Part shown: positions 33,775-63,700 of the stretch, piece by piece
Position numbering within the stretch: the first letter of the stretch is position 1
Layout: every line of letters begins with the position of its first letter
Origin: Nitzschia sp. pyKryTriq1
Taxonomy: Eukaryota; Bacillariophyta; Bacillariophyceae; Bacillariales; Bacillariaceae
Length of the DNA stretch: 64,000 bases
Direction of reading: 5' to 3'
Assembly: GCA_956465555.1 (NCBI GenBank)
Contig: OY101117.1
Coordinates: 3,162,001 to 3,226,000 of the forward strand
Notes under the pieces: model-generated
The model's database searches: none
What the model saw: only the letters and a program-made list of their open reading frames with translations
Told to the model about the DNA's origin: nothing
Translations under genes and position numbers: made by a program

Positions 33775-34530
33775 CTAGAAAATGGCGTCGAATGCCTCGG
33801 CGGACAGTGGCTCCAACAATTGATTCATGCCAGCATGTTCCGGTATCGGGGTGGGTTCGTACATTTGTCCCGATTGAGGAAACGATAACGGGTCGAAAGG
33901 TTCTTCAATGAAATGCAACAACTGTCTTTCAAGGAGACTTGAATCTTCATCACAGGTAGTTGTAGGAAGGGGCTCCCAGTCATCCTCGGCAACCTTCATT
34001 GGCGTTGAGCGAAGCTTGCAAGTATTCAGTGGTTCCATGCTGGGAACAATGTCATTATTTATTCTGATCAAAGGGAAGTCGATCTTTTCACTCTCCTTGA
34101 TTGGAGTAGCGCTCATGTTGGTAGTAGTTTGCATCACATTCGGAGAATTCATAAGGACCTGAAGAATGGATAATTTTGGAATACCATGTCGGCTCATGAA
34201 ACTACAAAGGACTTTGTTCCCTCGGATAAAGTACGGGTGGATCCACCCTCCCTTGAAGGGTCCGTCGAGAATGCGCTCCCAGTGCCACATGTTTAGCTGC
34301 CGTTGAAACGAGCGATACTTCGTTTGGCTGAATCCGAAATGCGGAAGGATTTGCAACAGTTTTTCAGGATCGTGTACCAAGATCGCTCTTCCATTCTGAA
34401 CCCAAGAAATAACATTGTCAAGTCCCTCCCGTTCGGTAAAGGTCATGAGATCATGAAGCTTTCCTGGAAACTGAGCGCTTGCCGCTCCGCGGGCAGGGTT
34501 TTGGAGTCCGTTTCTCGGTGCTGAGCCCAT
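33775..34530 (-). CDS. Heat-shock-factor-type transcription factor, tandem copy 2, intronless
   Basis: A single 251-residue open frame in the same orientation as copy 1 and about 0.9 kb upstream of it. The DNA-binding domain (about residues 20-115) aligns with copy 1 without gaps: Q-F-P-G-K-L-H-D-L, S-W-V-Q-N-G-R-A-I-L-V-H-D-P, K-Y-R-S-F-Q-R-Q-L-N-M-W-H-W and G-G-W-I-H-P-Y-F-I-R-G-N-K. The position matching copy 1's intron is uninterrupted here, so either copy 1 gained the intron or copy 2 lost it. The C-terminal halves differ but share an acidic, Pro-rich ending (E-P-T-P-I-P-E-H), similar to E-P-T-P-L in copy 1. Confidence 0.92.
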   Translation of the reverse strand: MGSAPRNGLQNPARGAASAQFPGKLHDLMTFTEREGLDNVISWVQNGRAILVHDPEKLLQILPHFGFSQTKYRSFQRQLNMWHWERILDGPFKGGWIHPYFIRGNKVLCSFMSRHGIPKLSILQVLMNSPNVMQTTTNMSATPIKESEKIDFPLIRINNDIVPSMEPLNTCKLRSTPMKVAEDDWEPLPTTTCDEDSSLLERQLLHFIEEPFDPLSFPQSGQMYEPTPIPEHAGMNQLLEPLSAEAFDAIF

Positions 34531-35278
34531 TGTGTCTGTGATGATTGAAGCTGGTTGGCAGTTGTTGACTGATAATCGATTGTCGGTATTTGGTCGACGA
34601 GTGTCACGGTATGTGGATATTGTGAGATGTGATCTGATGAGATGCTTTGCTTTGAGTTTTTTTTTGTGAGCTCGTCACTGACGATCTGCGATTTTTCTTC
34701 TTCATGCGCTGGCGGAAGCCGCCACCCAGGTTACCAAAATAGCCTCATATCGTGGTAGGGAACTCTTCCTCGGAACAATTTCAATACCGCAAAGATCATC
34801 TGTCTTATATACGCAACTCTTTCGTATAAATACTGGATCCCTTTAAAAATACTAATTGCCTGGTGAGTAGATGTCCGATAACAGCTTTTAGGTCCTCCGC
34901 AACTCCGCGTTATCGGTAGCGCTTCGTCTCTGCGTTCGGTCCGAGCGAGTGAGAACGCCAGCGTGGCGGCGGGTGGCGGTGTGCAAGTACACGTACCAGT
35001 ACCGGTTGTTCAACCAGTTATCCTTTGTTCAACTGTTCTCTTGTTGTTCGGAGTGCAGTTTTACAGTAGTCCGTGTGCCAGCGTGGTGCATGTTCTCTAC
35101 CACACCGGTCACCGCGTACAACCTGTATTGTAAGGCCGAAAAGGAATCGGGAATCTGGAATTTTGTGACGAGGGGCGGACGAGAGGGCACGAAGAAAAAA
35201 AGAATGATGCCAACAATAAGCGAAGCCCGCAAAAGCGAAAGGTGAAGGAGAGAAAGGAGAAGGATCAACGGAGCGACG
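34531..35278. other. Intergenic, divergent promoter region
   Basis: Lies between the divergently transcribed HSF-like copy 2 and the pyruvate-carrier fusion, so probably carries both promoters. No gene seen. Confidence 0.55.
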
Positions 35279-36434
35279 ATGGCGAGAGCCTCTTTCCCGG
35301 CCCTTTGGGCGTGGACCTTTAGACTACACTACATGATCTTGTACTGGTACACTACGAGTACCCTTGCTTTGAAGATGCTCGTGTTCTCAATCGCCTCGTC
35401 ATCGCGAGCAATCTCCAGCTCATCGCTGCGAATATCCAAGTCGGCAATTAGACGACGATGGCAATCGTCGACTCCTCCTCCAACGACCAAGGAGGTCGAG
35501 AATGGGGTTTCCAGCAAGAAATCGTTCTGGACAAACGCCGAGGTATGACTTGCGATTGCGGCTTTCCTCTTATAGAGGACTCACTCCTTGACTGGCGGAC
35601 TCATTCACTCCTGACGAGCCTCACCTTTTCCGTGTCTTTGCTCGACTAGACTTGGGGCTTCATGTCCGCAATGGCAGGATGGACAATGTCTATAGCTGCA
35701 ATTTCAGACGCGGTCAGTAAAGGACCCGAAGTGATTTCCTTGCCCATGACATCCGTCCTTGTTCTTTATTCTTCGCTTTTTCTGAGGTGGTCGTTCGCGG
35801 TGAAACCACAGAATTTGTTCCTGTACGTAGTAAGCACATTGATTGTTCGTATAGTTTGATAGAAACCGACAAGCTTCAGGCATCAGGGTACACTCACGTT
35901 TGCCATCCCATGAAACATAGAGGCGCTTGTCACTTTACAAATATCTGTGCACAACTCAACCAAGGGCGGCGGGCAATCGAATACAAACTGGAGAACAATC
36001 TGCGCAATGAAGTCGATGATACAGCTCAGAAGGTTGGGGTGGTAGTCGCTGTCATGGGAGGAGCCATTCTTGGAGGGCCAGTTGTTCAAGCAGCATTGAT
36101 TCGACAAAATCTTGGAAGAGTGTCGGCTATCGCTGCCGCCGATGCGGGACCGTTTACGATACATTTTTGGGCCCCAATGTCAAAATGGTTGCTCAGTGGC
36201 GCGTCACTCTTGGATTACAAACGGCCCACCGATAAAATTTCCATTTCTCAGTACTCATCTCTGACACTCTGTGGTCTTATACATTCATGGTACGCACTTC
36301 TCGTCACTCCAGTCAATTACATGTTATGTAGCGTCAATGTGGCGCTACTGCTGAGCAGTGGCTGGCATCTGGGTCGTAAAATCCATGCGGACTACTTCAA
36401 GAATGAAAAGATTGAAGATACAAACGCTGATTAG
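35279..36434 (+). CDS. Fused mitochondrial pyruvate carrier: MPC1-like plus MPC2-like units in one chain
   Basis: Three exons: 35279-35542 (GTATGA donor), 35650-35822 (GTACGT donor) and 35921-36434; introns 107 and 98 bp, phases 0 and 2, giving 316 residues (284 if the ATG at 35375 is used, which leaves a cleaner Ser/Arg-rich mitochondrial presequence ending R-R-R-W-Q-S-S). Residues 80-170 match MPC1: G-W-T-M-S-I-A-A-I-S-D, G-P-E-V-I-S-x-x-M-T, Y-S-x-x-F-L-R, V-K-P-Q-N, then A-C-H-F-T-N-x-x-A-Q-L-N-Q-G-R. After a hydrophobic segment (about 184-206), residues 220-305 match MPC2: A-G-P-F-T-I-H-F-W-A-P-x-x-K-W, R-P-x-D-K-I-S, Q-Y-S, G-L-I-H-S-W-Y, P-x-N-Y-x-L-x-x-V-N. The MPC1 tail and all of MPC2 share one uninterrupted exon. 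Expected to import pyruvate across the inner mitochondrial membrane. Confidence 0.88.
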
Positions 36435-36842
36435 ATCTTTGCCTAGCCTTCGAATGGAACTAGCAGAGGAAACCAGCAGTTACGTTACTGATCTTTTCTT
36501 CACTTTCACCATCGGAACAATGATGAAAGATAGGATAGCGATCAAAAAGTAGGAAAGAAGACACATGTTTTTTAAAAGTTGCTAAGTACGAAAAGTAGCG
36601 GGAAATCTTTTCGCCCATGTCACATTCAAGCAACGCTTGTATACTGTAGTATTCCTATAATTAATATAATAGTACTGACGACTGACGAGAAGTGTGGGCC
36701 TCTCATGATGAGTTTTTTACCAGCTACTGTAGCTTTTCCATCCAATTCCAACATCAAGCACCATTCAACGCAATAACAACGAACAACGAGATAACCTACC
36801 TTTGTGGCACTTCAAGTTTCAATGGTTTGATATGAATAAGGA
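36435..36842. other. Intergenic, no gene seen
   Basis: Gap between two same-strand genes; nothing recognised. Confidence 0.5.
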
Positions 36843-38111
36843 ATGATGATACATGCGCCAAATCGTCAAAGTCACAAGGAGCCGACGAGAGCGACCTCGG
36901 CTATTCTTTTTCGACGGCATGGGACAAGAATCATCATCGCTTCTATTCTCCTGGCAACGCCCGTGCTGGTACAAGTAGTCTCGGTTCCTTCAGCACTCCC
37001 GAACCATGTCTTTCCATACAACATATTCTCCGCCAGCCTTGTGATAAAGGACTCCGGGAAAAATCAGTCTCGCTGTGCCTTGGATGCGCCAGGTTCTTTT
37101 GATTTTGATCTACGGAGGTTTCGACTACAGAATGACGATCATCAGAGCACTCCTGGCGCTCCGAAAAGGAAAGCATCCACGGCAACACAAACACAACTCC
37201 CGTGCCCCTGGGTCGATTATGCCGCACGTATATTGCGAACAAAAGAAAAGTTTCTTACTACAGAAGAGAAACACGAGAAACAACGACTTATTAGCGATAA
37301 ACCTCGCAACGTCTTGTTGGTCGGGGACTCTCAGGAACGAAATATCGTGGAGCATCTGTGTAAATCTTCCAGAGATGCCGAGCTTCGCGTCGTACGTCCC
37401 CGATGGACAGACATTGGTTCACCTACCATCATACGCAGCACGACCAGCGATAAATCTGACAATTTGCTAGTTTGCACCATCGGTAACTTGACCGTCGCCA
37501 ACTTTTTTCATTTCGGGCTGATCGGTCATCATCGCTTGGCGGATAACCACGTATCCTTCAAAGACGACGAGCCCACAAAGACTGATCGAATCCAAAGGAT
37601 GCTCCCCTACTTTGTGAGAGATGCATTTGCTAGTTCACTCGACAAAATCCAACTGAATGCGATCGTTTTGAATTCCGGGCTGTGGGACCTTCTGGCTATT
37701 GCGACCCACGAAAGTTGGAGGGAGGAATTGAGCACGCTGCTATCGAACAGAAATTGGGGTGAGCAAGTCTACAATTTGACAGAAACTATACGAAACATCC
37801 TCCCAACTTCTGAGATAATTTGGAGAAACATGCCAGATGTTGTCGAAGAGAGAACCAAACATCGGGACATTATCCAGGTAGGAGCGTTGACTAATCCGTT
37901 CACTTCGAAGCATGTAGAGTGGATGAACCATGTGGGCACTGTCACTGCAAAAGACCTAGGGTTGCCTATTCTTGACTGGCGAGGATCACTTGTTCAGGGA
38001 GAATTAGAGCTATTGACTGATTGGGATGGATTCCATATTCGGAAAGCAGGCCTTGATGTGTACATCAACCGAATTCTTAATTTTATCATGGCTTCTGATG
38101 TTGGGGTGTAG
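36843..38111 (+). CDS. Type II membrane SGNH/PC-esterase-like hydrolase
   Basis: A 422-residue intronless gene with a membrane anchor at about residues 29-50 (I-I-I-A-S-I-L-L-A-T-P-V-L-V). The lumenal domain has the block I nucleophile in V-L-L-V-G-D-S-Q-E-R-N (Ser about 163), a W-D-L-L block with the preceding N-S-G (family block with Asn), W-R-N-M-P-D, and a C-terminal D-G-F-H (Asp about 395, His about 398) as the acid-base pair. This layout fits the SGNH superfamily branch that includes plant TBL/PC-esterases and NXPE-like proteins, which add or remove acyl groups on glycans in the Golgi. Which reaction it performs is unknown. The 3' end lies only 38 bp from the facing ankyrin gene. Confidence 0.75.
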   Translation: MMIHAPNRQSHKEPTRATSAILFRRHGTRIIIASILLATPVLVQVVSVPSALPNHVFPYNIFSASLVIKDSGKNQSRCALDAPGSFDFDLRRFRLQNDDHQSTPGAPKRKASTATQTQLPCPWVDYAARILRTKEKFLTTEEKHEKQRLISDKPRNVLLVGDSQERNIVEHLCKSSRDAELRVVRPRWTDIGSPTIIRSTTSDKSDNLLVCTIGNLTVANFFHFGLIGHHRLADNHVSFKDDEPTKTDRIQRMLPYFVRDAFASSLDKIQLNAIVLNSGLWDLLAIATHESWREELSTLLSNRNWGEQVYNLTETIRNILPTSEIIWRNMPDVVEERTKHRDIIQVGALTNPFTSKHVEWMNHVGTVTAKDLGLPILDWRGSLVQGELELLTDWDGFHIRKAGLDVYINRILNFIMASDVGV

Positions 38112-60791: not shown

Positions 60792-63700
60792 CTACATGTC
60801 ACCTTTGGGTCTTCGTTTGCGAGGAGGTGTCTTCCTTGATGACGAGCGCCCACCCGACAAAGTAGGTTCCTCTACTTCGTCTTGCTGTCTTCGCTCCTTT
60901 GTCTTCCGGGCACGTTCATAGCGACTGGGAGGTACTATCGACTCCCCCACACCATTGTGCAGTGTCCAAAGCCAATTCTTGTACAAATTGAGCCTCCAGT
61001 CGCTTTCTTGTTTCACTGTGGGAGCCCAGTCGTCGCCCAGAATGCGCAAACGCAGCTCCGCCTCGCTTCGAAGCAAATCTCGAAAGGTTCCCATATCCAT
61101 CCATATGGGAGAATTCGGATCTGGGGGGTCAGGAAGTGCATCCTGTTCTCGCCTGTTTGGGATTGTGCGAGCATTGTAGATTCGTTTCGGGGACCCATCT
61201 TCATTGATTTTGTCTCGACGTGATCGTCGTCGACCCTCGGAATCGTCCTCTTCGACCTTCCTGCTACTTCGAGACCCCTTACCATCTCGCGAGTCTTCCA
61301 AGGTGCCTGCAGCCGAAGACTTGGGACGTCGAATAACGGCATCGTCTTCTTCCCTGCTTTGGCGACGTGAAGCTCTTCCGGTTCTTTTCTCATTAGACGA
61401 TAGCTGAGGTTCGTTGGATTGCTTCTCTTTCGACATGGGTCGTTTCGGATCACTAGTATTTTCCCTCGGCATCGCCTCATCGGTGATTCCATCCGTATCC
61501 ACTTGTCTGGATCGGTAGGCGGCCTTCGTAGATTCGCTTTCAACTGTCTGGCGGCGTCTTCGTGCCATCTTTTCGGCTTCCACGCGTGTTTCCGCTTCTT
61601 CCAAAGTATCCACAAATTCAATTTCCGATTTTCCGCTGCTGATGGGGTCAGCAAGCTTCCACTGGGGCGGGATTCCCATACGGGGACGGGAAATTTGATC
61701 CGCCACAATGATAGCCAATGCTTCACCCTGTAATGCTTGTATCTCCTCCACCTGGTAACCTAGACGAGTCACATTCGCCAGCGGCACCAAAACTAGAGTC
61801 TTTCCAATGTCCTTGTACAAGATTACCCGCTCATCAGCCTCGTCCTCTTGATTACCATCTTTCTTCGCTTTCATGTCCGATGGGTTGGTACTTGTTGTAG
61901 CAGTCACTGTTGGGCGTTTGTCGGCTGCAGCAGTAGGTATTCGTACCTTGTCTTGTTTTGTTTCAATGATTTTCGAATTGGATTCTCCGAGTCGGGTATT
62001 GTCCTGGTCCGGGATTTTGGGTGATTTTCCGTCGGCAGTAGGTACCTTTAGCGATGAATCTTGAGTATCATCTTCGTCCTCGTCCTTAGTAGCTGCAACT
62101 GCCGGTGACTTGATGCTGCTGTTGTTGGTAGCGGATGAGCGGGACGTCGCTTTGGAAGAAAGCTCTGCACCGCTCGTTCGCTCCGTACTAGAAGACTCGT
62201 TCCTGTCGGGCACTTCTGCTTTACTTGAAGTCGCCGGTGGTTTGATTCGAGTGACAGGAGGAAGAGTTCGTCCCACTGTCGAGGGCGTCGGTGGTGATCT
62301 CTTATTGAATGAACGTACGGGTTCTTGCTCTTGCAACTTTTGGATCCGTTCCTTGGCTTCAATCTCATTTGCTACGATTTGCACCATAGCTTGTCGTTGG
62401 TCGGAAGTACGGGTATTCGTAGGCCCCACTTTCCAGGGAGCGGGGAGACCTAGCGTGGCGCGGGGTCGTCGAATTTGGTCTTGGACGATAATAGCGACCG
62501 CATCGGGAAGCAATTCTGTGACTTCCCCTTCCAAATATCCCAAATTCGTCAACACGGATAGATTTACCATTTTCCAACCTTGTTTGGCCTCTCGGTACAA
62601 GATCGTCTTGTTGTTTGTCGATGACGATGACGACTCGTCTTTTGTACTACTTCGAGCAGTTGGGATATTGTTGGCTGATGTTGTAGCACTGATGGTGACA
62701 TTGGCAGTAGTACTTTTTGCGTTTTCTGCTGCGTTTGACTGCTGCTTTTCCAAGGAGGTTAATGGTTCCACCACACTTTGATTCTTCTTTTTGGCACTGT
62801 CGACTGCCACCCCAGCCGCACTTCTTGGAGGCGATATTCTTGTCTTGTTAGTTACGTTTGTAGTTTTTAGACTTGATGGTGATGCTGACTTTTCATCGTT
62901 CGACAAGTTCTTCGGATCGGGTGTATTGGCAGTAATAATGGTATCGGAAGGAGTTGTCGTCGAGGTATTGGTGGTGGCGGCGGCGGTGGTCGTGCTGGTG
63001 GTGGACAAGACGGTCGAGATGTTCATGGTCGAAGAAGATACAGTCGGCGCGATGGAAGATTCATTCAACCCAACAATACTGGTCGGAGCTGTCTTGATTA
63101 TTGTCGAAGAGTTGCTGACCTGTATTGTTTGGCCCCCGTTGGTATTGTTGACGATAGCAGGAGCGGTTTGATTCGTGTCGTCGATAGTAGCGGTCATGGA
63201 AATGATAGCAGGCACTTTATCATTTTGATTTGCCGAGGAGTCTTTGTCCTCGGACGGAGGCGCTTTCAAGACACTGCTGCTAGTTGTGGGAGATGTTTTT
63301 TTGTTCAAAGAAGCCGAAAAAGCAGCCTCTTGGGACTGTATTTCTGGCCTCGATGATGATTGCGGTGTGTCAGTAGTACTAGCCCCCGGATCATCCTCTG
63401 GTATTTGTTGCTGTTGTTGTTGCTGTTGCTGCTGTTGCTGCTGTTGCAGCTGCTGTTTGGACTCTAACGTTTCGGTTGTTTCTTCAATATTATTTTCAAC
63501 ATTGTTTGAAAGGTCTTCGTCGTGATCTGGCAGGGCAACCGCCGGCCATTTGGAGTAAACCTCTTCTTCTCCCAGGATATCTAGGACATACTCTTTGTAC
63601 CACTCTGGATCCACTTTTCGGATCATTTCATGCAATGCCTTTCGTTGTTGCAGCGAATAGATATTATTTTTTTTGTTCTTGTTTTTGTTTTTGGTGCTTG

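Follow-up and report, generated by a model that had tools for sequence, protein, structure and literature searches.

Does the window, the whole 64,000-nucleotide stretch of Nitzschia sp. pyKryTriq1 DNA analysed here, encode a mitochondrial pyruvate carrier (MPC) in which MPC1 and MPC2 are joined in a single chain, and if it does, how old is the joining and what would such a carrier do? The gene in question lies on the plus strand, and its three exons (35279-35542, 35650-35822 and 35921-36434) join in frame to give 317 residues ending at 36434. Exon 1 (35279..35542) translates into an Arg/Ser-rich mitochondrial-type N terminus followed by the first residues of the MPC1 unit. Intron 1 (35543..35649; GTATGA...CTAG) was placed by its splice dinucleotides and by the ungapped alignment of relatives at the junction, and exon 2 (35650..35822), with the bulk of the MPC1 unit, was placed by an in-frame match to Pfam family PF03650 and by a match to MPC1 chains in the PDB. 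Exon 3 (35921..36434; PF03650, E 2.8e-24) follows intron 2 (35823..35920; GTACGT...ATAG) and holds the end of the MPC1 unit, the linker and the whole MPC2 unit in a single open frame, with the stop codon at 36432-36434. A preliminary description of this DNA had the exon coordinates, the order of the units, the linker and the content of exon 3 right, and both junctions proved gapless in the MPC1 part when compared with relatives. Its start at 35279 is possible; however, the starts of relatives cluster near the second Met, an ATG at 35375, so that a 284-residue protein, also with an Arg/Ser-rich N terminus, is likelier than the 317-residue version.

The spliced exon 2/exon 3 junction is crossed by the database protein P0001, a fragment of 178 amino acids that is identical to the window protein save for its first residue and reads straight across the junction, giving some independent support to intron 2. 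Its initial Met corresponds to the GTG codon of VKPQN, which suggests the product of an unspliced (prokaryote-type) gene caller run on a cDNA-like contig. The open frame together with this near-identical transcript-like relative ruled out a pseudogene.

The Pfam search showed that the whole window protein scored 161.6 bits with PF03650 (E 7.7e-48; cut-off 27 bits) in two MPC stretches, as had been expected for the spliced product, and no Pfam match other than MPC was found up to E 10, with HMMER filters dropping most very weak matches. MPC1 chains from the PDB align to residues about 51-138 only and MPC2 chains to residues 188-256 only, and because each kind of chain matches a separate half only, the halves are regarded as genuine MPC1 and MPC2. 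The MPC2 unit, delimited by its Pfam stretch and PDB match, comprises residues 189-272 of the 284-residue protein (36144..36395, plus strand). Residues involved with pyruvate and the proton are kept in both units (H84, Y62, F66 and L80 in the MPC1 unit; K49, L96 and N100 in the MPC2 unit). At the level of sequence, the two Pfam stretches and the half-specific PDB matches confirm the earlier claim of a single-chain MPC1, hydrophobic linker and MPC2.

In the assembly, which comprises 40,651,789 bases in 20 contigs, a search with PF03650 gave six exon matches at three places, namely the window, a copy on contig C1 that is identical over the gene span, and, on contig C3 near 354,000, another gene (L007), here called paralogue B. 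Paralogue B also has two MPC stretches in one chain according to Pfam and shares 52% identity with the window gene over aligned residues. Its MPC1 unit, linker and the start of its MPC2 unit lie in one uninterrupted open frame, with a single intron inside MPC2, so the joining does not depend on a splice guess. Like the PF03650 matches, those of the human MPC1 and MPC2 sequences, used as queries at E up to 10, fell on fused loci only, and no separate MPC1 or MPC2 gene was found in this exon-by-exon search, which a heavily split gene could escape.

Beyond the gene itself, both tested window ends (1001 bases each; window 200-63800) are copied on C1 at about 4301538-4360839 with 100% and 95% identity, and close to the gene the C1 copy is longer by about 1.6 kb (L008 4431-6024). 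Judged by the ends and the gene span that were compared, either a large segment was duplicated recently or two haplotypes were left unmerged. A neighbouring open frame on the minus strand (window 33775-34671) contains an HSF-type DNA-binding domain (PF00447, E 6.9e-13), and a 423-residue open frame on the plus strand (window 36840-38108) adjoins the MPC gene and gave no Pfam match up to E 10. Near the start of the window (about 1138-1200), a dispersed short repeat of ~60 bases has 39 further genome matches at 84-92% identity (40 of 107 candidates scored), and at about 63405-63457 some 50 bases recur at many genome places, some as neighbouring copies about 27 bases apart.

A protein search with the window protein returned 552 proteins, and the best 120 of these were examined. 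They have the MPC1-linker-MPC2 layout of the window gene in common; the MPC1-unit H84 and the MPC2-unit K49 are both present in 120/120, and the length is at least 244 residues in 119/120, the exception being the fragment P0001. Three fused relatives carry transcript names (P0048, P0075 and P0106), and P0048 and P0075 are marked complete. A readable organism name is attached to eight of the best 120 (Thalassiosira twice, Cylindrotheca, Detonula, Cyclotella, Striatella, Epithemia and Seminavis), all of which we take to be diatoms, two of the names being shortened. Rows like the window and paralogue B set are labelled diatom-type here, few of them carrying an organism name.

A quick tree of 122 rows grouped the window gene with P0001, P0003, P0005, P0007, P0015, P0028, P0030 and P0041 (SH-aLRT 99), apart from a main group of 113 rows that holds paralogue B. 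Paralogue B, with a branch length of 0.16 compared with 0.68 for the window gene, falls among rows like the one from Cylindrotheca, presumably a pennate diatom, which makes a pennate diatom the likeliest source of the window. A profile search with the small clade gave 678 proteins, and among the best 120 of these the scores fell from 462 to 422 bits after P0007; only P0138 of the 38 rows new in this search has the residues of the clade. P0138 was assigned by those residues, while the tree held the other eight of nine database rows and the window gene. Tree and residues together indicate that the window gene is in a rare, diverged clade with nine database rows.

The linker between the units comprises residues 137-188 of the 284-residue protein (35988..36143, plus strand). 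Conservation by segment is 0.58 for the linker, 0.82 for the MPC1 unit and 0.90 for the MPC2 unit. The hydrophobic segment reported at residues 184-206 of 317 (36033..36101, plus strand) is real by hydropathy, with a 19-residue mean of up to 1.90, coincides with a peak of the family profile in the listed diatom-type rows, and is proposed to be an extra transmembrane helix. Whether one extra crossing is needed, as the preliminary description held, depends on the units. In the human MPC both have three helices and the same orientation (PMC12007569, excerpt), in which case an odd number of linker crossings is needed, whereas no crossing is required under an older model of MPC1 with two helices; the N termini of MPC have been placed in the matrix by other studies. 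The linker would pass the inner membrane once and leave both units parallel, as in the human heterodimer. The extra crossing is less sure in chlorarachniophytes and Amoebophrya because their named linkers are weakly hydrophobic (best 19-residue means 0.65-0.98).

The spread of the fusion was examined with a non-diatom bait made of joined human, yeast and Arabidopsis subunits separated by a random spacer; 8000 candidates were scored, 767 passed and the best 120 of the 767 were examined. Unit profiles placed MPC1 first and MPC2 last in 119 of these 120, four of them with an extra match of 1 bit or less. The sole exception was P0159 from the moth Chrysodeixis includens (424 residues), with two MPC1-type units; it is probably two tandem genes joined in the gene model and was left out of the non-diatom counts. 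Readable names among the best 120 of 767 are Amoebophrya, Perkinsus, Bigelowiella (JGI label), Partenskyella (name shortened), Hondaea, Amorphochlora, Aplanochytrium, Mucochytrium, Aureoumbra, Rhizochromulina and Diplonema papillatum. The lineage was checked for Diplonema, Bigelowiella, Perkinsus and Aplanochytrium; Perkinsus is presumably also the source of C5K6B0, a described 7-TMS protein. On this basis the named fused proteins appear to span alveolates, Rhizaria, labyrinthulids, other ochrophytes and a diplonemid.

Among 119 diatom-type rows, 115 have a linker length of 56; a length of 58-60 is seen in 59 of the 116 bait-search linkers that remain after P0196, P0234 and P0270, in which the linker was not located. 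When 114 of these 116 (trimmed linkers of more than 25 residues, MPC ends removed) were compared with a profile of diatom-type linkers, they averaged 9.5 bits, and block-shuffled means never exceeded 1.04 in 100 rounds; the shuffles were made within 12 columns and do not preserve helix periodicity. All 100 of their own shuffles were beaten by 51 of the 114 linkers, and at least 95 by 78. Clear scores were obtained for Diplonema (26.7 bits), P0222 (19.5 bits; by its label a diplonemid, as we take it), Aureoumbra (17.6 bits) and Rhizochromulina (11.6 bits), the shuffled means for Diplonema and P0222 being 2.7 and 0.5. Labyrinthulid linkers beat 83-95 of 100 shuffles, which is suggestive, and those of Perkinsus/Amoebophrya and of chlorarachniophytes were not significant against the diatom-type profile, the closest, P0185, beating 93 of 100.

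Linkers were further compared between pairs of groups by our own profile comparison with 100 block shuffles, using nine groups that cover 30 of 119 diatom-type and 91 of 119 other rows; the groups were set after the full-length tree had been viewed, have at most three named members each and in two cases none, and leave out, along with other rows, P0164 and P0168, which are named Perkinsus rows whose linkers are long. The results showed that 26 of the 36 group pairs beat all 100 shuffles, among them diatom with diplonemid and chlorarachniophyte with syndinian, and that each group does so with at least three others. The other 10 pairs failed to beat all shuffles, including diatom with chlorarachniophyte (32/100 shuffles as good) and diatom with Perkinsus/dinoflagellate-type; the weakest was chlorarachniophytes with a 14-row group (46/100). 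In the full-length tree, which is unrooted, uses 10 diatom-type rows and leaves out P0168, most named groups cohere, diplonemids fall outside the ochrophytes, and the labyrinthulids, which are stramenopiles, stand beside chlorarachniophytes and not beside ochrophytes.

Because linker similarity beats all shuffles in 26 of the 36 pairs, one old fusion kept by many protists is more likely, on sequence grounds, than a diatom speciality. That MPC1 and MPC2 were instead fused several times independently, the linkers being alike merely as a small-residue helix followed by an amphipathic stretch, is a serious possibility that we nevertheless consider the less probable one. It can draw on the two separate functional subunits of Toxoplasma (PMC10100952, excerpt), on the diatom pairings that failed, on the named Perkinsus linkers of 88 and 135 residues and on the loss of helix periodicity in the shuffles, but it has to contend with the 26 successful pairs, the linker lengths and the scores of the Diplonema and P0222 linkers against a profile built from diatoms only.

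Pocket residues were taken from the human structure paper (PMC12007569, excerpt; MPC1L numbering is that of MPC1 plus 2) and counted over 277 database rows, of which 149 are diatom-type outside the rare clade, 9 belong to the rare clade and 119 are non-diatom fused proteins. H84, K49, L80, L96 and N100 are present in 277/277 rows and Y62 and F66 in 276/277, the remaining row being gapped there. Diatom-type rows outside the rare clade have G33 (148/149), M36 (148/149), W69 (149/149) and F82 (148/149). The non-diatom fused rows have N33, F69 and W82 (119/119 each) and L or I at 36 (117/119), with the proviso that these rows were ranked by likeness to the human/yeast/plant bait, which favours canonical pockets and may miss diverged non-diatom proteins. 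Separately, a Trp at human MPC2 Y85 occurs in 39 of the 119 non-diatom fused proteins (P0160-P0278), Perkinsus and Amoebophrya rows among them. All nine rare-clade rows have H82 and C78; G33 is found in seven (two gaps) and W69 in eight (one gap), and R84 is kept in eight of nine, the exception being P0001, with Trp as in the window gene. Residue counts and sequence place the Cys at human MPC2 T78 at 36270-36272, the His at W82 at 36282-36284 and the Trp at R84 at 36288-36290, all on the plus strand.

By these counts, diatom-type fused carriers have four remodelled pocket residues, namely N33G, L36M, F69W (MPC1 half) and W82F (MPC2 half), and the rare clade differs further by T78C and W82H, with R84W only in the window copy and its near-identical relative P0001. 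Thus the MPC2 half lost a Trp and the MPC1 half of the same pocket gained one along the diatom stem, a long branch (1.25) of the unrooted full-length tree. The Trp of the W82 position, replaced by His in the window gene and by Phe in paralogue B, is no requirement for membership of the Pfam family. In the human protein, H86 (MPC1L) and K49 are essential for pyruvate binding, W82A abolishes the binding of three inhibitor classes, and Ala at F71 (MPC1 F69) or at the W82 position severely affects transport, F71A leaving inhibitor binding unchanged (PMC12007569, excerpt). Because Ala at these positions has such an effect, replacement of F69 and W82 could mean a lost or shifted function; because W82A removes inhibitor binding, weak inhibition is expected in diatoms. 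In the literature searched, no paper on MPC inhibitors in diatoms was found.

The window protein is most likely a proton-coupled pyruvate carrier with an altered inhibitor response. With good confidence we regard the gene as encoding a nuclear single-chain mitochondrial pyruvate carrier with a three-helix MPC1 unit, one proposed extra helix and a three-helix MPC2 unit, whose pocket was remodelled in diatoms and further in the rare clade, which is expected to work as a carrier with weak inhibitor sensitivity, and whose fusion is more likely than not one old invention. The parallel MPC1 and MPC2 units would form one pyruvate pocket between them, through which the fused protein would import pyruvate together with a proton, and the window copy is expected to be a working monocarboxylate/proton carrier weakly sensitive to UK5099-type inhibitors. 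A broader history is put forward only tentatively: the single-chain carrier may be one ancient form that arose before stramenopiles, alveolates and Rhizaria diverged and that diplonemids also have; the separate subunits of groups such as apicomplexans may be later splits; diatoms may then have rebuilt the pocket, a Trp disappearing from the MPC2 half and another arising in the MPC1 half; and the window clade with His82 and Cys78 may represent a second carrier of diatoms whose substrate or inhibitor profile has shifted.

It is rather unlikely that the window copy has lost its preference for pyruvate through a move, either of its clade or of all diatom fused carriers, to another small monocarboxylate, with pyruvate perhaps left to paralogue B. 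The constancy of N33, F69 and W82 in 119 non-diatom rows and their change in diatom-type rows, T78C/W82H in 9/9 rare-clade database rows and the long window branch would fit such a shift, but K49, N100, H84 and Y62, through which the human protein binds the carboxylate, the keto group and the proton, are kept, and the pocket still has a Trp, elsewhere (F69W). It is less probable still that the fused carrier is a pyruvate exporter, diatoms being able to make pyruvate inside mitochondria, as the authors of the Cyclotella cryptica work proposed (PMC5124317, excerpt) and as mitochondrial pay-off glycolysis in stramenopiles (PMC11115451, excerpt) might allow; against export, proton coupling with a matrix more alkaline than the outside would favour import, and the fusion is also found in non-stramenopiles such as a diplonemid and chlorarachniophytes. 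An artefactual joining, whether through wrong exon calls or through the merging of two adjacent genes, is barely credible: one exon holds the MPC1 end, linker and MPC2, paralogue B has a like layout with a different intron, 119 of the best 120 of 552 relatives have two-unit length, transcripts among them, and P0001 crosses the exon 2/exon 3 junction, so that two neighbouring genes in place of one fused gene were ruled out.

The preferred reading, a single-chain pyruvate carrier, has counterparts in known systems, and the fusion that stood out in the preliminary description is not new, since a fused MPC gene in diatoms was reported in 2016 in a Cyclotella paper (PMC5124317, excerpt) and, in 2020, several MPC proteins were described with seven TMS arranged 3+1+3 and with halves that resemble MPC1 and MPC2 (PMC7176098, excerpt). 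Like the window gene, the fused MPC of Cyclotella cryptica has MPC1 and MPC2 in one gene (PMC5124317, excerpt). The C. cryptica protein P0143, among the best 120 of 678 in the clade-profile search, is, we infer, the published gene g13004.t1; it is of the Phe82 type, whereas the window gene has His82, Cys78 and, with P0001 only, Trp84. The 7-TMS MPC proteins of TC 2.A.105, such as C5K6B0, have a 3+1+3 order with an MPC1-like first and an MPC2-like second half, as proposed for the window protein, and their authors favour duplication of a 4-TMS unit while leaving fusion possible (PMC7176098, excerpt). Because the halves of the window protein match MPC1 and MPC2 separately, fusion is favoured over duplication. 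Each half also matches the human MPC1/MPC2 and MPC1L/MPC2 heterodimers (PDB 9mnw, 8yw6 and 9giv; PMC12007569, excerpt), with which the site of K49, H84, Y62, F66 and N100 is common, although these are two chains and the window gene encodes one, differing at N33, L36, F69, T78, W82 and R84.

The preliminary description had also compared the protein with SWEET sugar transporters, in which an extra helix links the domains (PMC12007569, excerpt). The likeness holds for the proposed 3+1+3 layout, but no SWEET or PQ-loop match was found; MPC alone was found by Pfam up to E 10 under filters that drop most very weak matches, and SWEET identity was ruled out. The window protein may be built like a SWEET and yet not be one.

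What appears to go beyond published work is the wide protist spread with similar linkers, the four diatom pocket changes, and W82H/T78C in the rare clade together with R84W in the window gene and P0001; in the open-access literature, no paper on the spread, the linker likeness or the diatom pocket was found beyond PMC5124317 and PMC7176098 (both excerpts). An MPC that is single-chain by nature would fix how the subunits pair, may, as the preliminary description proposed, lock the 1:1 stoichiometry and prevent homodimers, and could help to resolve debates on stoichiometry and topology. With F69W and W82F, and with H82 in the rare clade, the diatom pocket predicts weak action of standard inhibitors in diatoms, and the likeness of linkers across several SAR lineages and a diplonemid would make the history of the MPC a readable character.
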